Assembly: GCA_028687545.1 (NCBI GenBank)
Contig: JAQTZZ010000034.1
Location: forward strand, 1 to 45,821
Direction: 5' to 3'
DNA: 45,821 bases
DNA from: Candidatus Wallbacteria bacterium
Lineage (GTDB): Bacteria > Muiribacteriota > JAQTZZ01
Shown: positions 1 through 45,821 of the stretch, one piece after another
How the letters are laid out: the number at the start of each line of letters is the position of its first letter
Numbering within the stretch: position 1 is the first letter of the stretch
Position numbers and translations under genes: made by a program
Notes under the pieces: generated by a model
What the model was told of the DNA's origin: nothing
What the model saw: only the letters and a program-made list of their open reading frames with translations
The model's database searches: none

Positions 1-125
1 AGGCTTTTGTCGTTCCGCTCGGACCTCGGAGTCTCCTCCTCGATCTGGAACCAGCTCCCGGGCGCTCCGGCGCTTTCCCGGTCCGGACTTTCACCGGCGG
101 ACTGACGCAGTTTGTCAGGACGCAC
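1..125 (-). mobile_element. 5' end of a group II intron (bacterial IIC-like), running off the left edge
   Basis: Read on the minus strand from 125, the sequence begins with the group II 5' consensus GTGCG. It then has a CTGAC/GTCAG hairpin, a GGTGAAAGTCC segment like the domain I start of IIC introns, and a GTTCC/GGAAC stem holding GACTCCGAGG and followed by GACAAAAGCC. From memory, the order and spacing resemble the Oceanobacillus and Bacillus halodurans IIC introns, though the bases are diverged and GC-rich. The catalytic domains V and VI and any reverse transcriptase gene would lie left of the window. The assignment rests on motif recall and not on a covariance search. Confidence 0.6.
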
Positions 126-29294: not shown

Positions 29295-30647
29295 TATAAT
29301 CTTCCCCGGATTGAATATCCCCTGCGGGTCAAATATTGCTTTCACTTCCTTCATCAAGTTGACAGCATCTTTCCCCAGGTTTTTCTTCAGAAAACCCCGC
29401 CGTTCGATGCCGATTCCATGTTCGCCCGAAACAGCTCCGCCAAGATCCAGAGCGATTGCATGCAGTTTTGCAAAAAGGAGCTTTGTTTCTGTGACTTCCG
29501 ACTTATCGTCAGGAGAGAACAGAACATTGGGATGAAGGTTGCCGTCCCCGATGTGCCCGAAAAGAACGAACTGCACCTTGAATCTGGAATGCAGCTTTTC
29601 CACTTTCGAGACAAAATCCTGAAGACGGGCTCTGGGTACGACCAGGTCTCCGCCAAGTACGCCTGGTCTGAGATTGGCGAAGGCAGACATCAGCCCCTTG
29701 CGCCAGCGCAGGAACTCGTTTCCATTGTCTGTGCTTTCCGTAAAATCCAGGCGATTTTTTCCTGCAAATTTTCTCACCATATTCCAGGCTCCGTCGATTT
29801 TTTCCACGCTTCTGCCGTCCAGTTGAATCAGCACAGCATATGGATTGTCTCTCTTCCAGTTCGCTTTTTCCCGCAACTCAACAGCTTTCTGGCATGTCTG
29901 GTCCATAAATTCCAGGATGGCAGGAGTGATTCCCCGGCCTGGTAAGAACTTGAAGCCGAATTCAGTAAGCAGCTTCAAATCCCTGAATCCAAGATAAGCG
30001 GTCCTGAATGCCAAAGGCGCTGGAATCACCCTGAGAGTGATTTCTGAAATCAGCCCGAGCGTCCCCTCGGCTCCGCAGAACAGCTGATGCAGCGGATATC
30101 CGAGCGCGTAGCGCAGGTTTTTCGTGCCAAGTATAATTTCCCTGCCTTGATGATTGATGTATTTCAGGCCGAGCAGATAACTCCTGGTTGTACCGTATTT
30201 CAGGGATCTGATACCGCCTGCATTGGTGGAAAGATTGCCCCCGATGGTGCAGACTGAGGCTGAAGCCGGATCAGGCGGGTAATAAAATCCAGATTCAAGG
30301 CAGAATTTCTTGAGTTCACCTGTAATCACGCCGGGTTGAACTGTGACCATCATGTTTTCAGGGGAAAATTCCAGAATTTTCCGCATCTTTTCGAATGATA
30401 CAACGATCCCAGGTTTAACGGCGAGCGGCGAGCCGGTCATGGCAGTCCCTGCTCCCCTCGGATAAACCGGCAGGCTCTGTTTTGAGCAGTATTTAACGAT
30501 CTTTGAAAGATCGGAAGACGATTCCGGCCAGCAGACTGCCAGCGGTTTAGATTCATGTGGGGAAGCGTCGTAGCTGTAAAGAAGCCTGTCTGAATCCAAG
30601 CTCGAAAAATCGATCTTCAATCGTGAAAAATCTTCAAAGAGCTTCAT
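29286..30647 (-). CDS. FAD-binding 2-hydroxyacid oxidase subunit (GlcD/D-lactate dehydrogenase type)
   Basis: The 453-residue product has the PCMH flavin fold: YPRGAGTAMTGSP (62-74), TIGGNLSTNAGG (134-145), IRSLKYGTTRSYLLGL, and the C-terminal substrate/FAD domain with FGHIGDGNLHPN and AVSGEHGIGIERR. It oxidises D-lactate, glycolate or D-2-hydroxyglutarate; the exact acid is not decidable here. The ATG overlaps the stop of the sodium-pump beta subunit by four bases, so it is part of that operon. The end of the gene lies in a tandem repeat. The GlcF-like subunit follows. Confidence 0.82.
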   Translation of the reverse strand: MKLFEDFSRLKIDFSSLDSDRLLYSYDASPHESKPLAVCWPESSSDLSKIVKYCSKQSLPVYPRGAGTAMTGSPLAVKPGIVVSFEKMRKILEFSPENMMVTVQPGVITGELKKFCLESGFYYPPDPASASVCTIGGNLSTNAGGIRSLKYGTTRSYLLGLKYINHQGREIILGTKNLRYALGYPLHQLFCGAEGTLGLISEITLRVIPAPLAFRTAYLGFRDLKLLTEFGFKFLPGRGITPAILEFMDQTCQKAVELREKANWKRDNPYAVLIQLDGRSVEKIDGAWNMVRKFAGKNRLDFTESTDNGNEFLRWRKGLMSAFANLRPGVLGGDLVVPRARLQDFVSKVEKLHSRFKVQFVLFGHIGDGNLHPNVLFSPDDKSEVTETKLLFAKLHAIALDLGGAVSGEHGIGIERRGFLKKNLGKDAVNLMKEVKAIFDPQGIFNPGKIISE

Positions 30648-32125
30648 CCCAGTAATGCCAGCAACACACCGGCTGCCACAGCTGTGCCGATCACGCCGGC
30701 CACATTCGGACCCATCGCGTGCATCAGGAGGAAATTCTGGGGATTTTCACTCTGTCCCACTTTCTGGGCTACCCGCGCAGCCATGGGAACTGCGGAGACC
30801 CCTGCTGCGCCGATCAGGGGATTGATCCTGTCCTTACTGACCAGATTCATGAATTTCCCGAGCAGCACCCCTCCGGCTGTCGCGAAACTGAAGGCTATTG
30901 CACCCAGTATGAGGATTTTGATGGTGGCGAGGTTGAGGAAAGTTTCAGCCCGCATCGTGGTACCGACTGCAGTACCCAGAAAAATCGTCACGACATTCAT
31001 CAGCTGATTTCTGGCCGTGTCAGCCAGTCGCTCCACGCAACCGACTTCGCGCATCAGGTTTCCTAACATCAGCATGGCTACCAGAGCGGAAACTGCAGGA
31101 ACAATATAAAGACAGGTAATGCAGACCACTATCGGGAACAGGATCCGCTCACGCCGCGACACTTCTCGCAGCGGAGTCATCACTATCATCCGCTCGCGCC
31201 TGGTGGTCAGAAGCCTCATGATCGGCGGCTGGATCAACGGTACCAGCGCCATATATGAATATGCTGCCACTGCGATCGGGCCGAGCAGGTGAGGAGCGAG
31301 CTTGGCTGTAGTATAAATTGCGGTCGGTCCGTCGGCTCCTCCGATGATGCCGATGGAAGCTGCTTCCTGTGGCGTGAATCCCAGGAACATCGCGCCGATC
31401 AGTGTGATGAAAATGCCGAGCTGAGCTGCGGCACCCAGCAGGAATGTCTTGGGATTTGCAATCAACGGGCCGAAATCAGTCATTGCGCCGATCCCGAGAA
31501 ATATCAGAGGCGGGAAAATCTCCAGTTTTACACCGTGGTAAATGTAATAGAAAAGACCATAAGTCTCGCCAGGGCCGGGATAGATTTCATCAGAATAGAC
31601 TTCTTCAATCAGGAGCCTGTTCAGACGGAAGCGTTTTTCTTCAGTCAGATTCGTACGCGCCAGCTTCAGGGTTTCAGAAGAAATTCTGTAATTCTTAAAT
31701 ACATCCTCATTAAAAAAGGACTGGCCGTTCATGAGATTATTGAGCTCAGTCAGCAGATCAGACTCGAACTTTGAATCCAGTTTTCCAACCGTATAATCAG
31801 TAAGTTTTTTCTGCATGTCTGCAGAAAGATGTTCCTTCAGATAAATGGAAAACGGATCGTTCTGACTGTTCAGTCTGCTTACAAAGGCTGCGGAATTTTT
31901 CAGGTCCGATCGATAGAAATATCCGTCATACATGAGATTGTTATTCGGTATATTGGCAATCAGGGCGCCGAATCCGATCGGCATCAGAAGCAGAGGCTCA
32001 AAATCGCGGGCTACAGCGAGATAGATCAGCAGAATCCCTACTCCAAGCATCAGAAGCTGGTCCGGGGTAGAATGGAAAAATCCGGTCTGCCTGATGATCT
32101 CACCCAGATATCTAAGAATTTCCAT
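30644..32125 (-). CDS. Sodium-pumping decarboxylase beta subunit (OadB/MmdB/GcdB type)
   Basis: This 493-residue membrane protein carries out decarboxylation of carboxybiotin coupled to Na+ export. FLGIGAMTDFGPLIANPKTF contains Asp217, the equivalent of the Na+-site Asp in Klebsiella OadB, and GIIGGADGPTAIYTTAKLA and MGPNVAGVIGTAVAAG complete the channel signature. Residues 66-186 are an insertion of about 120 between the first helical pair and the rest; it is charged and helical and predicted to lie outside the membrane. Usual length is about 375-440. ATG at 32125 overlaps the biotin carrier stop. It is the fourth gene of the mmd operon. Confidence 0.88.
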   Translation of the reverse strand: MEILRYLGEIIRQTGFFHSTPDQLLMLGVGILLIYLAVARDFEPLLLMPIGFGALIANIPNNNLMYDGYFYRSDLKNSAAFVSRLNSQNDPFSIYLKEHLSADMQKKLTDYTVGKLDSKFESDLLTELNNLMNGQSFFNEDVFKNYRISSETLKLARTNLTEEKRFRLNRLLIEEVYSDEIYPGPGETYGLFYYIYHGVKLEIFPPLIFLGIGAMTDFGPLIANPKTFLLGAAAQLGIFITLIGAMFLGFTPQEAASIGIIGGADGPTAIYTTAKLAPHLLGPIAVAAYSYMALVPLIQPPIMRLLTTRRERMIVMTPLREVSRRERILFPIVVCITCLYIVPAVSALVAMLMLGNLMREVGCVERLADTARNQLMNVVTIFLGTAVGTTMRAETFLNLATIKILILGAIAFSFATAGGVLLGKFMNLVSKDRINPLIGAAGVSAVPMAARVAQKVGQSENPQNFLLMHAMGPNVAGVIGTAVAAGVLLALLG

Positions 32126-32502
32126 TATTCCAGTTCCACGAGAGACTGGCCGAATTCCACTTTCTGGCCTTTTTCACAGAGCACCTTCTTCACGCGCCCG
32201 GCTTTGTGCGAATAGAGATTCGTATTCATTTTCATGGCCTCGATCACAACAGCCAGCTGGTTTTCAGTGATGCTCTGCCCTTCCGTGACTTTGACCTCGA
32301 TGATAGTGCCTGCGAGCGGGCTCTTGATGGAAGTTTCCAATGCGTCAGCCACTATTTTCTGCGATTTTTCAAATGATCTGGCCAGATTCTGCGAGGATTC
32401 CTCAACCACTCTCTTCACAACGGCATTTTTCCCCTTATCCTCCAGGATTTCCACTTCCACTTCATATGTCTTGCCTTCAACAGTGATCCTTAGTCTCTTC
32501 AT
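32125..32502 (-). CDS. Biotin carboxyl carrier subunit of the sodium-pump decarboxylase
   Basis: The 125-residue protein has the biotin attachment motif EAMKM with Lys91, in a classical lipoyl/biotinyl domain (about 56-125) with SPLAGTIIEVKVTEGQ and SHKAGRVKKVLCEKGQKV. The N-terminal 50 residues form a small beta region and a helical, charged linker instead of the usual Ala/Pro-rich one. It carries CO2 between the carboxyltransferase and the membrane beta subunit. It overlaps both neighbours (start 32502 against gamma stop 32499; stop 32125 against beta start). Confidence 0.9.
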   Translation of the reverse strand: MKRLRITVEGKTYEVEVEILEDKGKNAVVKRVVEESSQNLARSFEKSQKIVADALETSIKSPLAGTIIEVKVTEGQSITENQLAVVIEAMKMNTNLYSHKAGRVKKVLCEKGQKVEFGQSLVELE

Positions 32503-32828
32503 TTATCGCGTCCTTTCGAAATATTCTGATTCATGAGTTCCACTTTTCCCTCGAATGACCACAACGTGTTGAACTGTCTCCTCTCCTTGACCAGCACTAT
32601 TTTTTTCAGTTCAAAGCTCTCGTCCAGAACTGCAGTAGCCGCTGCAGCGATCACTGCGATCAACCGCCTCTCTTCTTCTGTCGATGGTCCTGAGCCTGGA
32701 AAAAGCTGTCCGGGTTTCTGGAGATAGGAAAAAAGGTGGATCACGAAAGCGAGCAGACAGAGTGCCACGAAAACCACACCCATTCCCAGCAGTGTCAGTT
32801 CCAGCCCGAAAAGCAGATTGGTCATCAT
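32499..32828 (-). CDS. Sodium-pump decarboxylase gamma subunit (OadG family)
   Basis: The 109-residue product has one N-terminal membrane helix (about 7-31: GLELTLLGMGVVFVALCLLAF) and a cytoplasmic tail with AVIAAAATAVLDE, typical of OadG/MmdD proteins, which assemble the carboxyltransferase with the membrane subunit. The first ATG (32828) overlaps the stop of the carboxyltransferase (TGA, 32827-32825) with four bases; ATG at 32825 is the next codon and equally possible. A GGGGTGATG motif precedes it. Low sequence conservation in this family limits confidence, but gene order makes the call secure. Confidence 0.82.
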   Translation of the reverse strand: MMTNLLFGLELTLLGMGVVFVALCLLAFVIHLFSYLQKPGQLFPGSGPSTEEERRLIAVIAAAATAVLDESFELKKIVLVKERRQFNTLWSFEGKVELMNQNISKGRDK

Positions 32829-34360
32829 ACGGGCATCACCCCGTTTTTCTTGTAGGGATGTGAAACGCGCTTACTGGAAATGTTTTCAAGTGTCAAAGCC
32901 AGTAACTTTCTGGTATCGCGGGGAAAGATCACGTCATCCACAAAATTGTAGCCTGCCGCGATATAGGGATTGGCGAAAGCCTTGCGGTATTCCTCGATCT
33001 TCTGGTTGCGGCATTCCTCAGGTTTTTTCGCTTCCCTGATCTCGCGGGAAAACACGATATTGGCGGCTCCTTCCGCACCCATCACTGCGATCTCGGCAGT
33101 AGGCCAGGCGAAGACTGCGTCTGCTCCAAGGTCGCGGCTGCACATGGCGAGATAGGCTCCACCATATGCCTTGCGGATAATCAGTGTGATCTTGGGCACA
33201 GTGGCATGGGAATAGGAGTATAGCATTTTTGCGCCGTGCCGGATGATGCCTCCATATTCCTGCTCGATCCCTGGCAGGAATCCCGGAACATCCACCAGAT
33301 TTATCAAGGGAATGTTGAAGGCATTGCAGAAATTGATGAAGCGGGCGGCTTTGTCTGACGCGTTGATATCGAGCACTCCAGCCAGGAACAGGGGCTGATT
33401 GGCGACAATGCCTACCGACCGTCCCGCGATTCTCGCGAATCCGATCAGCATGTTCTTGGCGAAACCGCTCTGCACTTCCAGGAAGCTGTCCTGATCGGTC
33501 AGGCGGCTGATCAGCTGCAACATGTCATAAGATTCTTTTGGGTTTTCAGGTACTATCCCGTCCAGAGCAGGCAGTTCGTCCAGCTCGAAATCCTCTTTCA
33601 AAAGCGGCGGTTCCTCAAGATTATTGGAAGGAAAATAGGTAAGCAGACGTTTAGCTGTTTCCATCGCATCCTGGTCGTCTTCCGCCGCGAAGTGAGCGAC
33701 TCCTGAATGAGCCATGTGGGCTGCATATCCGCCGAGGTCTTCAGGGCTGACATCCTGCCCTGTGACAGCTTTGATTACATTCGGGCCTGTAATGAACATC
33801 TTGGCACTGTTCTTAACCATGATGATGAAATCAGAAAGAGCCGGCGAATAGACTGCTCCGCCTGCGCAGGGTCCTGCGATAATGGAAATCTGTGGCACTA
33901 CGCCCGAGAGCTGTGTGTTCAGGTAGAAAATCCTGCCGTATCCTGATAAGGACATCACCCCTTCCTGAATCCTGGCGCCACCCGAATCATTGATGCCGAT
34001 GAAAGGGGCTCCATACTTGAGGGACGCTTCCATGGCCTTGCAGATCTTGTCTGCATGCATTTCTCCCACAGAGCCGCCGGATGAGGTGAAATCCTGGGAA
34101 AAGGCGAAGACCAGCTTGCCTCCAACAGACCCTGATCCTGTAATCACTCCGTCTGCAGGGATCTCCTTGTTGCCGAGGTCGAACTGAGTGCAGCGGTGAT
34201 GAGCGAACTGGTAGTTTTCGATAAAGGTCTGCTTGTCGAAGAGAAGCTCCAGCCGCTCCCTGGCAGTGAGCTTGCCCTTTTCGTGCTGCTTGCCCGCATT
34301 GGCAGCTTCCTGCTTCTGGATGGCCGCTTTTTTCTCTCTCAGTTCAGTGATTTTATCCAA
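32825..34360 (-). CDS. mmdA: Carboxyltransferase subunit of methylmalonyl-CoA (or related) decarboxylase
   Basis: The 511-residue product is a PccB/MmdA-type carboxyltransferase with both oxyanion motifs: ARIQEGVMSLSGYGRIF and GPCAGGAVYSPALSDF in the N-half and RKAYGGAYLAMCSRDLGAD and MGAEGAANIVF in the C-half. It transfers CO2 from methylmalonyl-CoA to biotin. Glutaconyl-CoA enzymes are longer (about 580), favouring methylmalonyl-CoA, with propionyl-CoA as product. The TTG start has GGGGTAAC upstream, and no earlier ATG fits. It is the first gene of the six-gene operon and has a promoter about 60 bases upstream. The substrate call is inference from length and family. Confidence 0.88.
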   Translation of the reverse strand: MDKITELREKKAAIQKQEAANAGKQHEKGKLTARERLELLFDKQTFIENYQFAHHRCTQFDLGNKEIPADGVITGSGSVGGKLVFAFSQDFTSSGGSVGEMHADKICKAMEASLKYGAPFIGINDSGGARIQEGVMSLSGYGRIFYLNTQLSGVVPQISIIAGPCAGGAVYSPALSDFIIMVKNSAKMFITGPNVIKAVTGQDVSPEDLGGYAAHMAHSGVAHFAAEDDQDAMETAKRLLTYFPSNNLEEPPLLKEDFELDELPALDGIVPENPKESYDMLQLISRLTDQDSFLEVQSGFAKNMLIGFARIAGRSVGIVANQPLFLAGVLDINASDKAARFINFCNAFNIPLINLVDVPGFLPGIEQEYGGIIRHGAKMLYSYSHATVPKITLIIRKAYGGAYLAMCSRDLGADAVFAWPTAEIAVMGAEGAANIVFSREIREAKKPEECRNQKIEEYRKAFANPYIAAGYNFVDDVIFPRDTRKLLALTLENISSKRVSHPYKKNGVMPV

Positions 34361-34752: not shown

Positions 34753-37700
34753 TTATTGATTTTCAGGTTGAGCAAGAAAATGCACTTTCACTACTCTGCT
34801 CACAGTCACAGTGTTTTCCGTATACCTTGCGGTGCCCTCAACTGTACCTCCCTCGTTTCCAAATGGAGAGTTGATAGAATAGACCCCAGGTATACCTCCC
34901 ACCGTCCAGGTCAAGTTACCCGGCGCAAAACTTCCGTCATTGTACTGGACTTCGCCTGTGGAAGGCAGTTGGTAAACAGTGGCTTCAGTGGTAGCTTCAG
35001 TGGTGGAAAGCCCGATGTCTACTGGAGTATTGAGGGCTGTATCATAGGAATACCAGGCGTCGTTGTAATACTTGGCTCCATATCCGTCGATCACCCAGAT
35101 CCTGTTGTTGTAAACCAGGTTGGTGTGTCCGTATCTTGCTGCCCAGCCGTCACTGGCTGTAGCCTGGGTCCAGCTCACACCGTCTGATGAATACCAGATA
35201 TCGTTTAAACCACTGCCATTGCATCCGCCCCTCACCCATAGCTTATTATCAAAGACCAGGCTGGTGTGCCAATATCTTGCAGACCAGCCGGCACTGCCTG
35301 GAGCCTGGGTCCAGCTCACACCGTCAACTGAATACCAGACGTCGTTTTTATATGACGGGGTCTGATCAAGCCCGCCTATCACCCACATTTTATTGTCAAA
35401 TACCACACTAGTGTGATTACGTCGTGGGGAAAATCCATTCCCGTCATTGGCTTTGACCTGGGTCCAGTTCACTTCATCCGAGGAGCACCAGACATCATTA
35501 TTATAGTTGCCGCTGTTGTCACCTCCTCCGATCACCCACATCTTGTTGTCATAAACCAGGCTGGTATGTCCAAATCTTGCACTCCAGCCTGCATTGGAGG
35601 TGGCAGAAGTCCAGTCAGCACCGTCGGTGGAATACCAGACGTCGTTTTTATCGCTGCCGGTACTCATCCTGGCTCCCCCGATCACCCACATCTTGTTGTT
35701 AAAAACCAGGCTGGTGTGGCGAATTCTTGCAGTCCAGCCCGCACTGGCTGTAGCCTGAGTCCAGTGCACACCGTCTGAGGAAGACCAGACATCATTATTC
35801 CAGCTGCCGCCAAATCCCCCGATCACCCACATCTTGTTGTTGTAAATCAAGCTTGTTTGCCCATATCTGCCGGAGCACTCTGCACTGTCAGTGGCTTCTG
35901 AGCAAAATGCCCCGTAAACAGGAGAATAAGTCATTGTTTCACTGGTATCTGCGGTTCCCATCAGATGGGCTTCTGCTGTTGGAGTGTTCCAGTTCGTGAT
36001 CGCCTTGCATTCGACCGTAAAATTGGTTCCTTCCTGGACTTCCAGCGTTGCTCCGCTGTTTTTCCAGCTGCCGCCGGAGAGTCTCCACTGGGCTCCTGCA
36101 GTCACTGCCTCAGCAGGAGTCAGAGTCACTGACAGGGTGGGTTTAAATACAACATGAAGCACCAGCTTGCGGCTGGCAGTCACTGAGTTTTCAGTATAAC
36201 CGGCAGTCAGTTCAACAGTGCCTGAAGTTGCCCCTCTTGTGTAAACATACCCGTTTATACTGCCGCCACCTGAAGTAACGCTCCAGGAAAGGTTCTGCGT
36301 TGCATAAGTCCCGTCATTGTATTGGACTTCACCTGTAACAGGCAAGGTGCAGGTAGCTGTTTCCGAGGTGACTTCTGCGGTGGAAAGCCCGATGTCAACT
36401 GGAGTGTTGCTGGCTGAGGAATTGGCTGTGGAAACTGAATGCCAGACGTCGTTTTTGTAGCCTCCGTCATAGCCGCCGATTACCCACAGCTTGTTGTCAT
36501 AGACTACACTCGTGTGACTGTATCGAGTGGTAAACATCGGCGTTGATGTTGAAACCTGAGTCCAGGTGATTCCATCAGTGGAAGACCAGACGTCATTTTT
36601 ACAACTGCCGTCATAGCCGCCGATTATCCACAGCTTGTTGTCATAGACTATACTCGTGTGACTGTATCGAGTGGAAAACGCTGCGTTTGCTTTAACACAG
36701 GTCCAATTGATTCCATCAGTTGAAGACCACACGTCGTTTTTAGATACCCCGATACTGCCGCCGATTACCCACAGCTTGTTGTCATAGACTACACTCGTGT
36801 GCCAGAATCGAGCGCTAAAACCAGCTGCAGCAACTTCCTTAGACCAGGTTATCCCATCCCCTGAAGACCAGACGTCGTTTTTAGGTACCCCGGTACTGCC
36901 GCCGATTACCCACAGCTTGTTGTTGAAGACTACGCTCGTATGACTGTATCGAGCGGAAAAACCAGCTGCAGCAACTTCTTTAGACCAGGTTATCCCATCC
37001 CCTGAAGACCAGATGTCATTCAGATAGACACTGCCACCGCTCAGGCCGCCGATTACCCAGATCTTGTTATCAAAGACTACACTGGTATGTCCGTGTCGTA
37101 CGGAAAAACCGGCTGCTGCAGTGGCCTGGGTCCAAGTAGTACCATTCGCTGAAGACCAGACATCGTTTTTATCACTGCCGGCATAGCCGCCGATTACCCA
37201 CAGCTTGCCGTTATAAACCAGACTGGTGTGATTTTCCCTTCCTCCCCATGCTGAGGCAGACGCCTGCGTCCAGGTAGCCACACTCACTGTATAAACCGCA
37301 TTTTTCGTTAAATCTGTGGTTTCCATCGTTCCATCAATATCAGCCGGCTTGGTATATCCTTCCATAGTGCTGAACGTGATCTCAAAAGTCCTGCCAACCT
37401 GCACAGAGGTATTGATCTCACTGGTTATCCAATTGCTTCCACCGTCGATACTCCACTTGGCTCCGGCGGTTACTGCTTCAGCCGGAGTTATAGTCACTTT
37501 GAGATTGTGGTTGACAAGATGAAGCACAAATTTGCGGCTTGTTGTCGCTGAATTTTCCGAATAACTGGCCGTAAGTTCGACAGTTCCTGCTGCCGTGCCC
37601 CTTGTATAAACATTCCCGGCTATGCTCCCGTCACCCGGATTGACGTTCCAAACGAGGTCCTTGGGAGTAAATGTCCCGTCATTGTATTGGACTTCACCTG

Positions 37701-40700
37701 TGGCCGGGAGAGTGTAGATAGTGGTTTCCATGGTGACTTCCGTAGTGGAAAGCCCGATGTCGACTGGAGTGTTAACTGCGGTAGCTGCAGAATGCCAGAC
37801 GTCGTTCAGATACTTGGAGCCGTCATAGCCGCCGATCACCCACATTTTATCGTCAAAGACTATGCTCTTGTGATAGCATCGAGCGGAAAAAACGGCTGCA
37901 GTAGTAGTTTGGGTCCAGGTGATCCCATCCGTTGATGACCAGACGTCATTTTTAAAACCACCGCCATTGCCGCCGCTCACCCACATCCTGTTGTCATAGA
38001 CTACACTCGTATGTTCGACTCGATTGGAAAAAACGGCTGCGACAGTAGCTTGGGTCCAGGTGATCCCATCAGTGGATGACCAGACGTCATTTTTAAAACC
38101 ACCGTCATTGCCGCCGATCACCCACATCCTGTTGTCATAGACTACACTCGTATGATCGTAGCGAGCGGTAAACGCTGCGTTTGCTTTAACGCAGGTCCAG
38201 GTGATTCCATCAGCTGAAGACCAGACGTCGTTTCTTTTATTTCCATTATAGTCAAAGCCGCCGATTACCCACATTTTGTCGTCAAAAACTACGCTGGTAT
38301 GATAAATTCGCCTGTCAAAACCATTTGATGGGCTGCTTGCTCTGGCACAATGCCAGGTGTTGCCATCGTCAGACCACCAGACGTCGTTTCTATATGTAAA
38401 GTCATAGCCGCCTATCACCCACATCTTGTTGTTAAAGACTACGCTTGAGTGTCCAAATCGAGCGGAAAAACCGGCTGCAGCAGTAACCTGGGTCCAGGTA
38501 TTTCCATCTGTGGAAGAATAGACATCATTGGCTGCAGCACCGATCATGCCGCCTATCACCCACAGCTTGTTGTCAAAGTTTACGCTGGTTTGGTAATGTC
38601 TCCCGGCAAACGCCGCATCTGATGCAGCCTGGGTCCAGGCAGCCCCAATCACAGTATAAACCGCATTTTTCGTTAAATCCGTGGTTTCCATTGTTCCGGC
38701 AATAGAGGCCGGCTTGGCATATCCTTCCACTGTGCTGAAAGTGATCTCAAAAGTCATACCTGCCTGGAGTTCGGCAGTAGTTCCATTGTTCCTCCAATCT
38801 GCTCCTGTATTGATGCTCCACTTGGCTCCGGCAGCCACTGCTTCAGCAGGGGTCAAATTTACCGTAAGGATCGGGTTAACTTTATGAATGATCAACTTGC
38901 GGCTTACTGTCACGGAATTTATCGCATAGCTCGCAGTCAGTTCGACAGTACCTGCAGTTGCATCTCTTGAATAAACATTCCCGTTTCTGCTCCCACCTCC
39001 TGAAATGATGTTCCAGTAAAGATTCTGCGCTGCAAAAATACCGCCATTGTATTCAATTTCACCTGTGGTAGGGAGAGTGTATGTCGTTGTTTCCATAGTG
39101 GCTTCTGTAGTGGAAAGAGCTAGATTGACCGGGGTATTTGCTGCCGTAGCAACCGAATGCCAGACCAGATCAGTTATATTGTAGGCTGCAATCACCCAGA
39201 TTTTATTGTCGAATACCACACTCGTGTGCCCCCAACGCTTGGAAAAGTAATTGGCATCATTGGCTTTGACCTGGGTCCAGACTGCCCCATCTGCAGATGA
39301 CCAGACGTCATTTCTGGTTGCGGACATGTTGTCTTGACCTCCGATCACCCACAATTTGTTGCCAAAGACTATACTCGTATGACCGAAACGGATCGGAAAT
39401 GCCTGTGTCACTGTAACCTGGGTCCAGGCAGCTCCATCGCCGGAATACCAGACATCATTAAAAACGCCTGTCATCTCATCCGAAGTGCCGCCGATCACCC
39501 ACATCTTGTTGTCATAGATTACGCTTGTGTGGTAGTAACGTTTGGAAAACCCGGCAGCAGCGGCCTGAGTCCAGACCGCTCCATCGCTGGAATACCAGAT
39601 GTCATTTTTCGCTCCCCCGCCTCCGGTACCTCCCATCACCCACATTTTGCCGTCAAAAACAACGCTTGTATGACCGTAACGAGCCGGGAATGCCTGCGTT
39701 ACAGTAACATCGTTCCAGGTAGCTCCGTCGGTGGACCACCAGATATCATTTTTATTGTTTGCCGTTTCGTCATAACCGCCTATCACCCACATTCTGTCAG
39801 CAAACACCAGGCTCGTGTGCCCTAAGCGGCGGGAAAAACCGTTTCCGTCATTCGCCTTGACCTGGCTCCAGGTTTTCCCGTTATCAGCCGAAGACAAGAC
39901 ATCATCCCGGTTGCCTGAATCGCGGCCGCCGATCACCCAAATTTTACTGTTATAAACAAGGCTGGAAGCCAAATAACGGCTTGTCAGACCTGTCGCAGCA
40001 GCTTGCTCCCAATCCGCCACATGCAGGGTGAGTTTGCGGGTTACTGTGATTGAATTATCCGTGTAACTGGCAGTCAAGACCACTGTGCCGGATTCACCGC
40101 CTCTGGTATAAGTTGTCCCGTCCAGGCTCCCGATGCCGGAAGTCTTGACCCAGGTAAGATCATGGGCTGTGCAACTACCGTCATTGTATTGGATTTCACT
40201 CGTGGATGGCAGAGTGTAAACAGCAGCTTCTGTAGTGGCCTCAGTGGTGGAAAGCCCGATGTCTACAGGAGTGTTGACTGCTGTGGAAACTGAGTACCAA
40301 ACGTCATTTTTATTGACACCTGAGGCAGATCCTCCAATCACCCACATCTTGTTGTTGAAGACTACGCTGGTCTGAGACTCACGAATCGCAAAACCAGCAT
40401 TACCGGTGGCCTGGGTCCAGGTAGCTCCATTCGTGGAAGACCAGACGTCATTTTTGAAGCCTCCGTCAAAGCCTCCGATTACCCACAGCTTGTTGTCAAA
40501 GACTATGCTGGTATGAGCATTTCGACCGGAAAACATCGGCGTTGCTGTTGAAACCTGAGTCCAGGTAACTCCATCCGTGGAAGACCAGACGTCATTCATA
40601 TAGCTCCCGTCAGTGCCGCCAACCACCCACATTTTATTGTCATAGACTATGCTTGTGTGTTTACAGCGACCGGAAAAACCAGCTGCGCTAGTGGCTTTGG

Positions 40701-43700
40701 TCCAGGTGATCCCATCCGCGGAAGACCAGACGTCATTCAAAAAGGAAAACCTTTGCATACCACCGATTACCCACATCTTGTTGTCAAAGACTACGCTCGT
40801 ATGTCCGTGGCGAGCAGAAAAACCACTGCCGTCATTGTATTTGGCATTAGTCCAGGCGATTCCGTTCGTAGAATACAAGACATCGTTATTATCACCACCA
40901 GCATCACCGCCGATTATCCACATTTTGTTGTTGAAGACTACGCTGGTATGAAACTCTCGAGCTGTAAAATCAGCTGCTGCCTGTGTCCAAGTGTTCCCAT
41001 CCAAGGAAGACCAGACGTCGTTCATTACGCCACTGACTCCCTGCCCGCCGATCACCCATGTCTTGCCGCCATAAACTACGCTCGTGTGTCCGTGTCGAGC
41101 GGAAAAAGCCGTTGCAGTGGCCTGTACCCAGTCCGCAAGATGCAGCACAAACTTGCGGCTTGCTGTCACCGAGTTCTCTGTATAACTCCCAGTAATCTCC
41201 ACAGTGTCGGATGCCGTTCCTTTGGTGTATGTGTTCCCATCCAGACTGCCGCCGCCTGAAGTGATGTTCCAGGAAAGGTTCTCAGTGGCAAAAGTCCCGT
41301 CATTGTATTCAATTTCCCCAGTGGCAGGGAGTGTGTAGGTAGTGGATTCAGTTGTGGCTTCAGTGGTGGAAAGCCCGATGTCAACCGGAGTGTTGGCTGC
41401 GGTTTTAGCTGAATACCAGACATCGTTTTTGTAATAACTGTCACTACCTCCAATTACCCATATTTTGTTATCAAAAACCAGGCTTGTATGTCCGTTTCGA
41501 GGGGAAAATTCTGCTGCTGCAGCCTGGACCCAGGTGATTCCGTCTGCTGATGACCAGACATCGTTTTGATAGTCTGAGTAACCAAGATTCCCTCCAATTA
41601 CCCACATTTTATTCTCAAACACTTCACTTCTGTGTCTGTATCGAGCGGTAAAAGCAGCATTCGTGGTGGCATTGGTCCAGGTTTTCCCATCAGTGGAAAA
41701 CCAGACATCATTTTTTTTATTATCATCGTCGTCAATCCCGCCGATCACCCACATTTTATCTGCAAATACTACTACCGTTTCCAAGGCGCGGGCAGAAAAA
41801 GCTGCTGCTGCTGTAGCCCGGGTCCAGACAGCTCCATCAGTGGAAAACCAGACATCATTTGTTCTCAATGTTGAGGAATCGGTTCCACCAATCACCCACA
41901 TCTTGTGGTCAAAGACTGCACTCATCAGTCCGTATCGAGCGGAAAAACCCGCTGCTGCAGTGGCCTGGGTCCAAGTGACACCGTCAACGGATGACCAGAC
42001 ATCTCTTTTGCATCCTCCTGCAGAAGAATTTCCTCCGATCACCCACATTTTGTTATTGAAAACTAAACTTGTGTGTCCGAATCTGGCAGAAAAGCCGTTT
42101 GCATCATTGCCCTTGATCTGGCTCCAGGTGACCCCGTCATTAGAAGACCAGACATCGTTATGCATGCTGGTATCGTCAATGCCCCCGATCATCCACATTT
42201 TGTCGGCAAAAACTATGCTTGAATGCGACGTTCGAGCGGAAAACGCAGCAGTTACTGTAGCCTGGATCCAATCTGTCAGATGTAGCGTAAGTTTGCGGCT
42301 GACTGTCACAGAGTTTTCAGTATAACTCGCAGTAATTTCAACAGTACCTGTTGCCGTTCCCTTGGAATAGACATTCCCGATCAGGTTGCCGTCACCTGAA
42401 GTTTTTACCCAGCTGAGAGTCCTGGCAGTAAAGGTCCCGTCATTGTATTGGATTTCGCCTGTGGCAGGGAGAGTGTAGATAGTGGTTTCCATGGTAACTT
42501 CTGTGGTGGACAACCCGATGTCTACAGGAGTGCAGGCAGCGGTGTTGGCTGAGTGCCAGACATCATTTAGATAACCAGTTCCATTTCCGCCGAGCACCCA
42601 TATCCTGCTGTTATAGACTACGCTGGTATGATATGAGCGTGCAGAAAACTCCGCTGCTGCAGTGGCCTGTGTCCAGGTGATCCCATCAGTGGAAGACCAG
42701 ACATCGTCTCTATATGTACTGGCATTGCCGCTGAGCACCCAGATCTTTCCGTCATGAACTATACCTGTATGTCCAAGCCGGGCTGGAAATCCATTTGCAT
42801 CGTTGGCTTTAACCTGAGTCCAGGTAATCCCATCCGCCGAACACCAGACATCGTTTTTACTGTTTCCATCATATCCCCCGATCACCCACATTTTGCTGTC
42901 ATAGACTATGCTGGCATGGCACTCTCTTTCCAAGAAAGCCGTACTGTCAGTGACTTTTGTCCAGGTAATTCCATCAGTGGAATTCCAGATATCTTTATTA
43001 ATTGTGCCGTTATAGCCTCCAATCACCCACATTTTATTGTCGAAAACTACGCTGGAATGATACGCTCGAGTGGAAAAACCAGCTGTGGCAGTGGCTTGAA
43101 TCCAGGTGACCCCATCAGTGGAAGACCAGACATCGTTTGTATAACCACCAGCTTCGCCGCCGATCACCCACATCTTGCCGTCATAGGCTAAACTCGTGTG
43201 TCCTCTCCGTGCAGAAAATGCTGCATTTACAGTAACGCAGGTCCATGTTTTTCCATCAGTGGAAGACCAGACATCTTTTTTATTAACATCGTCATTACCA
43301 CCGATCACCCACAGTTTGCCTTCATAGACTATGCTGGAATGGCAGTATCGGGCCGAAAATGCTGCATTTGCTGTGGACTGGATCCAGAGTGCCCCGGAAA
43401 TTACCGTATATGTGCCAGTTTCCGCCGTGTCTGCTGTTTCCATTGTTCCAGCGAGATTGGCTGGTTTAGTGAGTCCGTTTACAGTATTGAACGTGATTTC
43501 AAAAGTCCTGGTTTCCTGAATCTCTGCAGTTGTCCCGCTGTTTCTCCAATTTGTGCCTCCGTCCAGGCTCCATTTAGCTCCTGCCGACACCGCATCTGCA
43601 GGTGTAATCGTCACTGCAAGTGTGTGATAGATTGCTGAATAAGCATAGCTTTCAGTAGTATCACCTGCTTCCATTGTCCCGTGAAATAACGCTGGCGCTG

Positions 43701-45821
43701 TATATCCGGTTGCTGTCTCGAAGGTGATGTCATAGGCTGTTCCCACCTGTATCTCCACGCTTGTCCCGCTGTCCTTCCAGGTAGTACCGTTGTCCACGCT
43801 CCATTTCGCTCCAGCAGTCACCGCTCCTGCTGGAGTCAGATTCACTGTCAGGCCGTGATTCAGGATTGTGTAGGCATAGCTCTCCACTGTGTCAGCCGCT
43901 TCCATTGTCCCGTGGAATGCTTCAGGCACTGTGTATCCAACCACTGCCTCGAATGTGATGTCATAGGCTGCACCTGCCTGGAGCGCTACATTTGTTCCGC
44001 TGTCTTTCCAGGTCGTTCCATTATCAACGCTCCATTTTGCTCCTGCAGTGACAGCTCCTGCTGGAGTCAGATTTACGGTCAGGCCGTGATTCAATACTGT
44101 ATAAGCAAAGGTCTCGGCAGTATCGCCTGCTTCCATTGTCCCGTGGAATGCTTCAGGCACTGTGTATCCAACCACTGCCTCGAATGTGATATCATAAGCT
44201 GTACCTGCCTGGAGCGCTATATTCGTGCCGCTGTTTCTCCAGGTTGTGCCATTATCTATGCTCCATTTCGCGCCTGCTGTCACTGCTCCGGCAGGCGTCA
44301 GGTTCACGGTCAGGCCATGGTTCAGGATTGTATAAGCATAGCTCTCCACCGTGTCCGCTGTTTCCATTGTCCCGTGGAATGCTTCAGGCACTGTGTACCC
44401 AACCACTGCCTCGAATGTGATGTCATAGGCTGCACCAGCCTGGATTTCCACGCTCGTGCCACTGTCTTTCCAGGTAGTCGCATTATCTACGCTCCACTTC
44501 GCGCCAGCTGTCACCGCTTCCGCAGGCATCAGATTCACTGTCAGGCCATGATTCAATATTGTATAAGCAAAAGTCTCTGTTGTATCGCCTGTTTCCATTG
44601 TCCCATGAAATGCTTCAGGCACTGTGTAACCAACCACTGCCTCGAAAGTGATGTCATAGGCTGTACCAGCCTGGATCGCCACATTTGTTCCGCTGTCTTT
44701 CCAGGTAGTCCCGTTATCCACGCTCCATTTCGCTCCTGCAGTGACAGCACCTGCTGGTGTCAGATTCACAGTCAGGCCATGATTCAATACTGTATAAGCA
44801 AAAGTCTCGGTTGTATCACCTGTTTCCATTGTCCCATGGAATGCTTCAGGCACTGTGTATCCGACTGCTGCCTCGAATGTGATGTCATAGGCTGTACCTG
44901 CCTGGAGCGCTATATTCGTGCCGCTGTTTCTCCAGGTAGTACCTGCATCTATGCTCCACTTTGCTCCTGCAGTGACTGCTCCTGCCGGAGTCAGATTTAC
45001 TGTCAGGCCATGATTCAACACTGTATAAGCAAAAGTCTCGGTTGTATCGCCTGTTTCCATTGTCCCGTGGAATGCTTCAGGCACTGTGTAACCAACCACT
45101 GCCTCGAATGTGATGTCATAGGCTGTACCAGCCTGGATCGCCACATTTGTTCCGCTGTCTTTCCAGGTAGTCCCATTATCTACGCTCCACTTCGCGCCAG
45201 CTGTCACCGCTTCCGCAGGCGTCAGATTCACTGTCAGGCCGTGATTCAACACTGTATAAGCAAAAGTCTCGGTAGTATCTCCTGTTTCCATTGTCCCATG
45301 GAATGCTTCAGGCACTGTGTATCCGACTACTGCCTCGAATGTGATGTCATAAGCTGTACCTGCCTGGAGCGCCACATTTGTTCCGCTGTCTTTCCAGGTA
45401 GTCCCGTTATCCACGCTCCATTTCGCGCCAGCTGTCACTGCTCCGTCTGGAGTCAGGTTCACGGTCAGGCCGTGGGTTACAGGTATGGCGGCTACGGTGT
45501 TGAAGCTCCAGCTGACCTCATGGGTGAGGCTGTTTCCTGCCAGATCCTTGACACCAGTGCCGATCGTTGCCGTATAAATCGTGCTGACCGCAAGAAGGTC
45601 GGCAGGCGTGAAAGTCGCGGTTGTGCCGTCATAGGTCACTTCACCTGAGACCGCAGTTGTGCCAGGTCCGGCCAATCTAAAAGTCGTTCCATTGATCGTG
45701 GAAGCTGCCATCGCCTCGCTGAATGTAGCCGAGATTTTCGAATTGACCGCCACATCAGTGGTGTCTGCTGCCGGAAAAACATTGACTACCATGGGTTCGC
45801 TGGTGTCCTGGGCCGGATCAG
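34753..45821 (-). CDS. Giant repeat protein with 77-residue beta repeats and 42 kelch blades (5' end outside window)
   Basis: At least 3688 residues are encoded; the frame is still open at the right edge, and the Met at 45792 is internal because DPAQDTSEP precedes it in frame. The visible order is: one SbsA/Big_5 Ig-like domain (about 45790-45480); eight near-identical 77-residue repeats and a ninth, divergent one; then seven kelch propellers of six blades each, separated by Ig-like linkers of 80-95 residues that begin near PVDIGLSTTE. In front of propellers 5, 6 and 7 an extra 77-residue-like domain occurs. The protein ends in an Ig-like domain with PENQ and has no visible sorting or membrane-anchor signal. 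It is likely an extracellular or surface adhesin-like protein; binding target unknown. Confidence 0.85.
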   Translation of the reverse strand, partial: DPAQDTSEPMVVNVFPAADTTDVAVNSKISATFSEAMAASTINGTTFRLAGPGTTAVSGEVTYDGTTATFTPADLLAVSTIYTATIGTGVKDLAGNSLTHEVSWSFNTVAAIPVTHGLTVNLTPDGAVTAGAKWSVDNGTTWKDSGTNVALQAGTAYDITFEAVVGYTVPEAFHGTMETGDTTETFAYTVLNHGLTVNLTPAEAVTAGAKWSVDNGTTWKDSGTNVAIQAGTAYDITFEAVVGYTVPEAFHGTMETGDTTETFAYTVLNHGLTVNLTPAGAVTAGAKWSIDAGTTWRNSGTNIALQAGTAYDITFEAAVGYTVPEAFHGTMETGDTTETFAYTVLNHGLTVNLTPAGAVTAGAKWSVDNGTTWKDSGTNVAIQAGTAYDITFEAVVGYTVPEAFHGTMETGDTTETFAYTILNHGLTVNLMPAEAVTAGAKWSVDNATTWKDSGTSVEIQAGAAYDITFEAVVGYTVPEAFHGTMETADTVESYAYTILNHGLTVNLTPAGAVTAGAKWSIDNGTTWRNSGTNIALQAGTAYDITFEAVVGYTVPEAFHGTMEAGDTAETFAYTVLNHGLTVNLTPAGAVTAGAKWSVDNGTTWKDSGTNVALQAGAAYDITFEAVVGYTVPEAFHGTMEAADTVESYAYTILNHGLTVNLTPAGAVTAGAKWSVDNGTTWKDSGTSVEIQVGTAYDITFETATGYTAPALFHGTMEAGDTTESYAYSAIYHTLAVTITPADAVSAGAKWSLDGGTNWRNSGTTAEIQETRTFEITFNTVNGLTKPANLAGTMETADTAETGTYTVISGALWIQSTANAAFSARYCHSSIVYEGKLWVIGGNDDVNKKDVWSSTDGKTWTCVTVNAAFSARRGHTSLAYDGKMWVIGGEAGGYTNDVWSSTDGVTWIQATATAGFSTRAYHSSVVFDNKMWVIGGYNGTINKDIWNSTDGITWTKVTDSTAFLERECHASIVYDSKMWVIGGYDGNSKNDVWCSADGITWTQVKANDANGFPARLGHTGIVHDGKIWVLSGNASTYRDDVWSSTDGITWTQATAAAEFSARSYHTSVVYNSRIWVLGGNGTGYLNDVWHSANTAACTPVDIGLSTTEVTMETTIYTLPATGEIQYNDGTFTARTLSWVKTSGDGNLIGNVYSKGTATGTVEITASYTENSVTVSRKLTLHLTDWIQATVTAAFSARTSHSSIVFADKMWMIGGIDDTSMHNDVWSSNDGVTWSQIKGNDANGFSARFGHTSLVFNNKMWVIGGNSSAGGCKRDVWSSVDGVTWTQATAAAGFSARYGLMSAVFDHKMWVIGGTDSSTLRTNDVWFSTDGAVWTRATAAAAFSARALETVVVFADKMWVIGGIDDDDNKKNDVWFSTDGKTWTNATTNAAFTARYRHRSEVFENKMWVIGGNLGYSDYQNDVWSSADGITWVQAAAAEFSPRNGHTSLVFDNKIWVIGGSDSYYKNDVWYSAKTAANTPVDIGLSTTEATTESTTYTLPATGEIEYNDGTFATENLSWNITSGGGSLDGNTYTKGTASDTVEITGSYTENSVTASRKFVLHLADWVQATATAFSARHGHTSVVYGGKTWVIGGQGVSGVMNDVWSSLDGNTWTQAAADFTAREFHTSVVFNNKMWIIGGDAGGDNNDVLYSTNGIAWTNAKYNDGSGFSARHGHTSVVFDNKMWVIGGMQRFSFLNDVWSSADGITWTKATSAAGFSGRCKHTSIVYDNKMWVVGGTDGSYMNDVWSSTDGVTWTQVSTATPMFSGRNAHTSIVFDNKLWVIGGFDGGFKNDVWSSTNGATWTQATGNAGFAIRESQTSVVFNNKMWVIGGSASGVNKNDVWYSVSTAVNTPVDIGLSTTEATTEAAVYTLPSTSEIQYNDGSCTAHDLTWVKTSGIGSLDGTTYTRGGESGTVVLTASYTDNSITVTRKLTLHVADWEQAAATGLTSRYLASSLVYNSKIWVIGGRDSGNRDDVLSSADNGKTWSQVKANDGNGFSRRLGHTSLVFADRMWVIGGYDETANNKNDIWWSTDGATWNDVTVTQAFPARYGHTSVVFDGKMWVMGGTGGGGAKNDIWYSSDGAVWTQAAAAGFSKRYYHTSVIYDNKMWVIGGTSDEMTGVFNDVWYSGDGAAWTQVTVTQAFPIRFGHTSIVFGNKLWVIGGQDNMSATRNDVWSSADGAVWTQVKANDANYFSKRWGHTSVVFDNKIWVIAAYNITDLVWHSVATAANTPVNLALSTTEATMETTTYTLPTTGEIEYNGGIFAAQNLYWNIISGGGSRNGNVYSRDATAGTVELTASYAINSVTVSRKLIIHKVNPILTVNLTPAEAVAAGAKWSINTGADWRNNGTTAELQAGMTFEITFSTVEGYAKPASIAGTMETTDLTKNAVYTVIGAAWTQAASDAAFAGRHYQTSVNFDNKLWVIGGMIGAAANDVYSSTDGNTWTQVTAAAGFSARFGHSSVVFNNKMWVIGGYDFTYRNDVWWSDDGNTWHCARASSPSNGFDRRIYHTSVVFDDKMWVIGGFDYNGNKRNDVWSSADGITWTCVKANAAFTARYDHTSVVYDNRMWVIGGNDGGFKNDVWSSTDGITWTQATVAAVFSNRVEHTSVVYDNRMWVSGGNGGGFKNDVWSSTDGITWTQTTTAAVFSARCYHKSIVFDDKMWVIGGYDGSKYLNDVWHSAATAVNTPVDIGLSTTEVTMETTIYTLPATGEVQYNDGTFTPKDLVWNVNPGDGSIAGNVYTRGTAAGTVELTASYSENSATTSRKFVLHLVNHNLKVTITPAEAVTAGAKWSIDGGSNWITSEINTSVQVGRTFEITFSTMEGYTKPADIDGTMETTDLTKNAVYTVSVATWTQASASAWGGRENHTSLVYNGKLWVIGGYAGSDKNDVWSSANGTTWTQATAAAGFSVRHGHTSVVFDNKIWVIGGLSGGSVYLNDIWSSGDGITWSKEVAAAGFSARYSHTSVVFNNKLWVIGGSTGVPKNDVWSSGDGITWSKEVAAAGFSARFWHTSVVYDNKLWVIGGSIGVSKNDVWSSTDGINWTCVKANAAFSTRYSHTSIVYDNKLWIIGGYDGSCKNDVWSSTDGITWTQVSTSTPMFTTRYSHTSVVYDNKLWVIGGYDGGYKNDVWHSVSTANSSASNTPVDIGLSTAEVTSETATCTLPVTGEVQYNDGTYATQNLSWSVTSGGGSINGYVYTRGATSGTVELTAGYTENSVTASRKLVLHVVFKPTLSVTLTPAEAVTAGAQWRLSGGSWKNSGATLEVQEGTNFTVECKAITNWNTPTAEAHLMGTADTSETMTYSPVYGAFCSEATDSAECSGRYGQTSLIYNNKMWVIGGFGGSWNNDVWSSSDGVHWTQATASAGWTARIRHTSLVFNNKMWVIGGARMSTGSDKNDVWYSTDGADWTSATSNAGWSARFGHTSLVYDNKMWVIGGGDNSGNYNNDVWCSSDEVNWTQVKANDGNGFSPRRNHTSVVFDNKMWVIGGLDQTPSYKNDVWYSVDGVSWTQAPGSAGWSARYWHTSLVFDNKLWVRGGCNGSGLNDIWYSSDGVSWTQATASDGWAARYGHTNLVYNNRIWVIDGYGAKYYNDAWYSYDTALNTPVDIGLSTTEATTEATVYQLPSTGEVQYNDGSFAPGNLTWTVGGIPGVYSINSPFGNEGGTVEGTARYTENTVTVSRVVKVHFLAQPENQ
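34756..43386 (-). repeat. Kelch propeller array: seven propellers x six blades
   Basis: Blades are about 46-52 residues with the pattern FSARxxHTSVVFDNKMWVIGG followed by NDVWSSTDGVTW. Propeller starts (minus strand) are near 43386, 42270, 41130, 40011, 38637, 37272 and 35906. I count six blades in each. Modules without an extra domain repeat every 1.12-1.14 kb; those with one repeat every 1.36-1.38 kb. The blade core is degenerate in a few places (IWVIAAY, WVSGG, WVRGG, WVIDG). Some neighbouring blades are much more alike than average, showing recent local duplication. Confidence 0.8.
43396..45474 (-). repeat. Tandem 231-bp repeats encoding a 77-residue beta domain
   Basis: Nine units in a row begin HGLTVNLTPAGAVTAGAKWS, with the last more diverged. 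Units 1-8 differ by only a few residues. The pattern includes KDSGTNVALQAGTAYDITFE and GYTVPEAFHGTMETGDTTET. DNA identity between units is high, so recombination and misassembly are likely here. The domain resembles PEGA-like or other extracellular beta repeats; I do not assign a family. Confidence 0.85.

Follow-up and report, generated by a model that had tools for sequence, protein, structure and literature searches.

An open frame on the minus strand of the window, the whole 45,821-bp contig analyzed here (contig C34 of a 4.54 Mb draft genome in 108 contigs), encodes a chain of seven six-bladed kelch propellers. The frame covers 45819-34753 (3688 amino acids, zero stop codons) and leaves the contig at its end. 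Joined to a second contig of the same genome, C10, it gives a protein of 4152 amino acids (12,459 nt including the stop codon) that is a predicted lipoprotein. A core-motif scan of the frame revealed 42 blades that fall into seven runs of six, and the same grouping was returned by two HMMs, a broader one and one derived from these blades. This is the count given in a preliminary description of the window, which had proposed seven six-bladed kelch propellers in strict register. Pfam profiles run against the whole protein scored 531.7 bits for Kelch_1 (cut-off 20.1), 74.3 bits for Big_4 (cut-off 22.1) and 88.0 bits for Big_5 (cut-off 23.6), and single blades also exceeded the Pfam cut-off in a search of the genome. 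No enzyme domain was found in the giant protein by Pfam profile scans.

Domain order, gene start and surroundings

Read along the minus strand, the window part of the protein starts with a Big_5 Ig-like domain identified by Pfam (residues 5-108, 45496-45807) and continues with nine 77-residue domains, eight of them in tandem (R1-R8, residues 116-731, 43627-45474) and then R9 (43396-43626). What follows has the order P-L-P-L-P-L-P-L-R-P-L-R-P-L-R-P-L, in which P denotes propellers, L Ig-like linkers and R 77-residue domains. Specifically, the six-bladed propellers P1 (42535-43389), P2 (41395-42276), P3 (40276-41130) and P4 (39139-40011), all located by the core-motif scan, alternate with linkers 1 (42277-42534), 2 (41131-41394), 3 (40012-40275) and 4 (38881-39138). 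In the second half a single 77-residue domain precedes each propeller: R10 (38644-38874) stands before P5 (37774-38640) and linker 5 (37510-37773, a Big_4 match in Pfam), R11 (37279-37509) before P6 (36409-37272, also modelled) and linker 6 (36142-36408), and R12 (35911-36141) before P7 (35032-35910) and linker 7 (34756-35031). The protein stops right after linker 7, which is thus its very end, and no C-terminal anchor was seen.

Successive blade cores are 46-51 residues apart inside a group, 134-135 residues apart across the P1/P2/P3/P4 boundaries and 212-219 residues apart across the P4/P5/P6/P7 boundaries. By the residue map, propeller starts lie 1113, 1146, 1119, 1371, 1368 and 1362 bases apart. 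The two module periods proposed earlier, about 1.13 kb and 1.37 kb, were therefore recovered as 1.11-1.15 kb followed by 1.36-1.37 kb. The Ig-like linkers that had been placed between propellers are borne out as well, with an Ig-like domain following each of the seven, as are the 77-residue domains at set places, one each before P1, P5, P6 and P7; the eight further domains in tandem ahead of the one at P1 are an addition to that description. Within the blades an R and a W of the core are invariant in all 42, while the strand 2-3 loop is different in each of the 42. The six other propeller-linker modules share 53-63% identity with the P6 module. We also considered reading the repeats as Asp-box propellers, for which the available text of PMC2716378 gives the consensus S-x-D-x-G-x-T-W, and rejected this because only four relaxed-motif matches occur in the 42-blade part, where the common form is S-x-x-D-G-x-T-W, with the D one place later.

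The last 127 bases of the window (45695-45821) are identical to the first 127 bases of contig C10, relative to only 66-76% identity in six other matches in the genome, and this is the sole suffix-prefix overlap among the 18 contig ends compared (153 pairs). Across the overlap another 464 residues lead up to an ATG, at C10:1517, which is preceded at a short distance by a Shine-Dalgarno-like AAGGAG. Bacterial lipoproteins carry a charged N-terminus, a hydrophobic stretch and a lipobox with its Cys, and the translation across the overlap displays, by eye, a charged start, a hydrophobic stretch and the lipobox AATGC. On this pattern the giant is a predicted lipoprotein, probably exported by way of a lipoprotein-type signal peptide encoded on the joined contig. 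Extension to a start codon, with a search for a signal or anchor, had been recommended earlier; the claims that the protein is secreted and larger than the window allows accord with this signal peptide and with the full length of 4152 residues. The head behind the signal, about 430 residues, had no Pfam or NCBIfam match.

The gene seems to stand alone on its 5' side, since the next sizeable ORF on C10 begins at 2146 on the opposite strand. On its 3' side a gap of 392 bp, directly after the gene without a terminator-like site that we could find, separates it from carboxyltransferase, OAD gamma, biotinyl and OAD beta genes in the same direction. This set (30644-34360, minus strand) is operon-like and, by its family names, of the sodium-pumping decarboxylase type. 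The window also contains part of a group II intron at 1-100 (minus strand; RF02003, 61.2 bits, threshold 49), cut by the contig end, and no tRNA. A 597-aa open frame at 43855-45648 on the plus strand, antisense to the 77-residue array, is probably a by-product of the repeat.

Structure models and repeat history

We modelled one of the seven propellers in its surroundings, the 540-residue span linker 5 - R11 - P6 - linker 6, using an alignment of 80 sequences (the seven of the window and 73 of 103 non-redundant propellers). Mean pLDDT was 85.5, with propeller blocks mostly at 94-98, linkers mostly at 80-95 and R11 at 35-57, and the model has six strand repeats across residues 160-450. The nearest solved folds are the kelch domains of LZTR1 (Z 35.9, 2.5 Å, 284 residues), KLHDC3, KLHDC2, NS1-BP, KLHL12 (Z 31.1, 1.6 Å, 247 residues) and KEAP1, and E. 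coli YjhT, with superpositions on KLHL12 and KEAP1 at 1.6-2.1 Å over about 250 residues. P6 is therefore predicted to form four-stranded blades that close like those of solved kelch domains, the closure of the ring being read from the superpositions. Structure prediction for each module had been suggested, and for P6 the outcome is six blades that fit solved kelch propellers. The module profile matches 95 PDB sequences, and the giant shares with the kelch superfamily (PF01344; LZTR1, KLHL12, KEAP1, YjhT) both the blade motif and the six-bladed fold. However, the solved folds are single propellers as far as can be judged from their lengths, while the giant has seven together with Ig-like linkers and a lipid anchor.

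Given the poor 77-residue domain in the 540-residue model, we folded R9 alone, which gave a pLDDT of 97.2. At Z 6-8, its aligned structures are mainly transthyretin-like domains and CnaB domains of pilins and adhesins, for example 8bdw CnaB2 at Z 7.7, 2.6 Å and 75 residues, with similar values for many pilins and transthyretin-like domains; the tool itself calls such Z values common. Foldseek returned no significant match to R9 (best E 0.047), there is no CnaB Pfam hit in the giant protein, and a PDB sequence search with a badly registered alignment of three tandem 77-residue domains gave nothing up to E 1. The CnaB-like likeness suits a stalk role for this domain without proving kinship. Neighbour identity within the 77-residue array falls from 91% at its start to 62% at its end, a gradient by which the array evidently has grown in tandem, and its dN/dS of 0.13 (28 pairs) indicates purifying selection.

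The strict layout had been taken earlier as a sign that entire propeller-linker modules, and not individual blades, were duplicated, and as stated this part of the description was not supported. At the amino-acid level, identity is 59.1% between blades that occupy one and the same position in different propellers, 55.7% for other positions and 57.6% within a propeller. This register between propellers, reached in none of 2000 shuffles, is significant but small, and may reflect either old kinship or position-bound constraint. The best matches of the 42 blades fall on the same position in 11 cases, on the own propeller in 11 and elsewhere in 20. At synonymous sites of the 21-codon core, median dS is 1.02 within a propeller (105 pairs), 1.72 for the same position (126 pairs) and 1.65 otherwise (630 pairs) in a set where 254 of 861 pairs lie beyond correction and pairs are non-independent; same-position blades are thus no closer than others (1.72 vs 1.65, p = 0.56). 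The lowest dS values belong to blades of P5 and P6, inside each and between both.

Exact repeats point the same way. The propeller part has 21 exact matches of at least 24 nt, of which a script classed 18 as blade-to-blade, with 11 inside one propeller, a class that makes up 12% of blade pairs. Two of the 18, scored as same position, start in a linker by the residue map, leaving 16, with 11 in one propeller and none joining the same position of two propellers. Because both dS and exact matches group blades by their own propeller, blade copying or conversion within propellers appears to be the more recent process, and whole-module duplication as the sole history of the giant is rejected on blade identities, exact repeats and dS together. 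Two further exact matches pair linker 5 with linker 6 and R10 with R11 at a distance of 1365 bp, the P5-P6 period, and these two units look like a module copy. These sequence patterns would be most simply explained by an old modular layout in which the P5-P6 unit was copied later and blades were copied or converted inside propellers.

In contrast, a relative in the same genome (contig C13, 79655-85633) has 82.3% identity between same-position blades vs 39.0% elsewhere, with 18 of 18 best matches in the same position, and by these measures does show clean whole-module copying. This blade-identity comparison leaves out one of the four propellers of the C13 relative (four blades detected), one of ten in a relative on C17 (five blades by the first HMM, six by the broader one) and one of five in a relative on C7 (seven matches, six by eye). 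In a tree of 53 propellers the seven of the window do not form one clade (two changes are needed, and one change sufficed in 0% of 200 bootstraps). Since only 12 of the 50 inner branches are well supported, this tree decides little and a single origin is compatible with it.

Relatives in the same genome and in other organisms

The genome holds 20 further ORFs or ORF pieces with at least four blades, 19 in the stretches examined and one on C70; some of the pieces run into a contig end and may be parts of a single gene. One of these siblings, at C17 57690-71993 (4768 aa), is complete inside one contig and has ten propellers (59 blades by the first HMM, 60 by the broader one), a linker after each, a PD40 stretch ahead of the kelch part and, by eye, a lipobox-type N-terminus. 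Lipobox-type N-termini were likewise recognized by eye in the sibling on C7 and in relatives of the head on C2 and C12. In the siblings on C26, C13 and C15, propellers alternate with arrays of the 77-residue domain, and a sibling on C15 has a Peptidase_S8 match of 171.7 bits. A kelch protein on C29 (locus L019) ends in a C-terminal FGE-sulfatase domain (Pfam, 166.9 bits), as do, by eye, those on C40 (L020) and C50 (L021). A diversity-generating retroelement was considered for the FGE-sulfatase siblings and dismissed, as PF00078 finds no reverse transcriptase in the genome.

Seven ORFs of the genome exceed 3000 aa. A frame of 6779 aa at C17:30761-51097 on the plus strand (L010/L011) has scattered kelch blades and an N-terminus like that of a type IV prepilin, with an N_methyl match (E 0.00039, 20.3 bits) just below the cut-off of 21.2. 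A frame of at least 2932 aa at C27:43205-52000 on the plus strand (L158) is matched 13 times by the Ig-like linker model and never by the blade models.

The module profile is matched by 31 of 39 genomes of the phylum, mostly weakly, and head relatives occur in two of the 39, both of one family. One genome listed in the same family as that of the window (G002) carries a 1143-bp module of Ca. Wallbacteria STB_16 at 100% identity, which joins the window genome to Ca. Wallbacteria at the family level. STB_16 itself has propeller-linker modules of this type, with three propellers and four linkers in the fragment L024, and 77-residue domains in L029. However, these are only fragments cut at contig ends, and no counterpart with seven propellers is among them. 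In another family of the phylum (G032 and G033, loci L164-L169), frames of 4,100-6,200 aa or more have 7-23 scattered blades by the broad HMM and no strict module layout.

A scan of a genome collection gave 441 relatives, and the best 80 kept comprise 77 loci, three from STB_16. The other 74 loci were picked by likeness to the module of the giant, with up to 10 kb on each side, and in this similarity-chosen sample, which is no census, 111 ORFs have at least four blades: two have four, five have five, 92 have six, three have seven and nine have twelve. None of these ORFs exceeds twelve blades, equivalent to two propellers, and none has the Ig-like linker. This is consistent with the earlier statement that one propeller is usual in bacterial kelch proteins and a chain of seven striking. 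Frames in four loci (L031, L037, L088, L099) have twelve blades without interruption, as if two six-bladed propellers were joined without a linker. The bacterial kelch proteins concerned (Zobellia and other Flavobacteriaceae, WOR-3, Latescibacterota and others) have the same blade type in six-bladed propellers, with identities of at most 61% per propeller, yet differ from the giant in their one or two propellers and in the absence of its linker from the 111 ORFs.

Searches of the open-access literature brought up no publication on large Wallbacteria kelch proteins. The BamI protein of Bacteroidota is likewise a lipoprotein whose Ig-like domain and six-bladed propeller lie beyond the outer membrane, but it has one propeller and belongs to the BAM complex (PMC12578637); its profile NF053688 gave 51.7 bits against a cut-off of 370 with the one of seven modules scored. 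The giant proteins of Apilactobacillus kunkeei are also extracellular, 3,000-8,000 aa long, rich in long repeats and several per genome, but they consist of alpha-helical repeats and beta-solenoids, and the text of that article uses neither the word propeller nor kelch (PMC12863079). Pereira and Lupas (2022; PMC9218822), in the sections available, similarly describe many blades per protein and amplification from single blades, with a top blade number of 47 among highly repetitive propellers rather than in a census of all proteins. However, in their 47-blade case, a NACHT protein from a fungus, the blades are nearly identical and the propellers indistinguishable, while those of the giant are marked off by linkers.

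Possible roles of the propeller chain

We give roughly even odds to the giant being the surface-exposed, multivalent binding arm of a Wallbacteria-group lipoprotein, with an anchor, a head, a stalk and the seven-propeller arm. A lipid anchor would be followed by the head of about 430 residues and by a stalk in which nine CnaB-like 77-residue domains follow one Big_5 domain, and the distal arm would consist of the seven six-bladed propellers with an Ig-like spacer after each. The strand 2-3 loops of kelch blades face the ligand side. Since the core is nearly constant and this loop differs in each blade, the binding face may be a different one in each propeller, and a flexible arm bearing seven weak sites would hold polymers, particles or other cells; the loop variety may also reflect weak constraint rather than selected binding. 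New loop sets would come from blade copying or conversion within propellers and from module duplication. Domain order, blade count, lipoprotein-type signal and the family in the genome are computed, and from them we infer surface exposure and multivalent binding: the lipid anchor, the stalk-like domains, the constant cores with 42 different loops and the protease and FGE siblings all suggest a surface arm able to bind at many places at once. That such lipid-anchored propeller strings amount to a bacterial surface-variation system, in which blade copying or conversion renews binding loops on a fixed scaffold, is a bolder extension that we think quite improbable.

The siblings with Peptidase_S8 and FGE-sulfatase domains could alternatively belong to a substrate-handling scaffold, in which the propellers hold polymers such as glycans or proteins and sibling enzymes cut them. 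An alpha/beta-hydrolase-like sibling part, seen by eye and as weak matches (Palm_thioest, 21.7 bits against a cut-off of 26.8; Hydrolase_4, E 0.18), would fit as well, but the giant itself is without an enzyme domain and its gene stands alone beside a decarboxylase-type operon, not among polymer-degrading genes, which leaves this an unlikely, if serious, alternative. The strict six-blade modules with their constant spacing, the many paralogues and the seven ORFs above 3000 aa would also suit a structural coat or matrix, in which the propeller chains of several giants would be packed side by side into a sheath or surface layer, with propellers that are building blocks instead of binding sites. 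A regular lattice, however, is poorly served by strand 2-3 loops that differ in 42 of 42 blades and by siblings that vary much in layout, and we regard a coat as improbable.

An assembly artefact or a decaying gene might be suspected because the gene runs off its contig and several sibling frames likewise stop at contig ends, and a false repeat number had been named earlier as one possible refutation. In the assembled sequence no exact repeat of the 12,459-nt gene is longer than 65 nt, whereas the overlap of the two contigs, a hint at the k-mer of the assembler, measures 127 nt, and a false repeat number is therefore unlikely. The 4152 codons without a stop, the purifying selection on the 77-residue array and the ten-propeller sibling complete within one contig also argue against an artefact or decay, which we consider very improbable.

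A chain of seven propellers, or ten in the sibling, with a fixed blade number and loops that are all different would be a natural multivalent binder. The family also offers a good opportunity to follow, in a single genome, the multiplication of blades, propellers and modules and the exchange of sequence among them, and with it the uncultured Wallbacteria gain a concrete set of presumed surface proteins.
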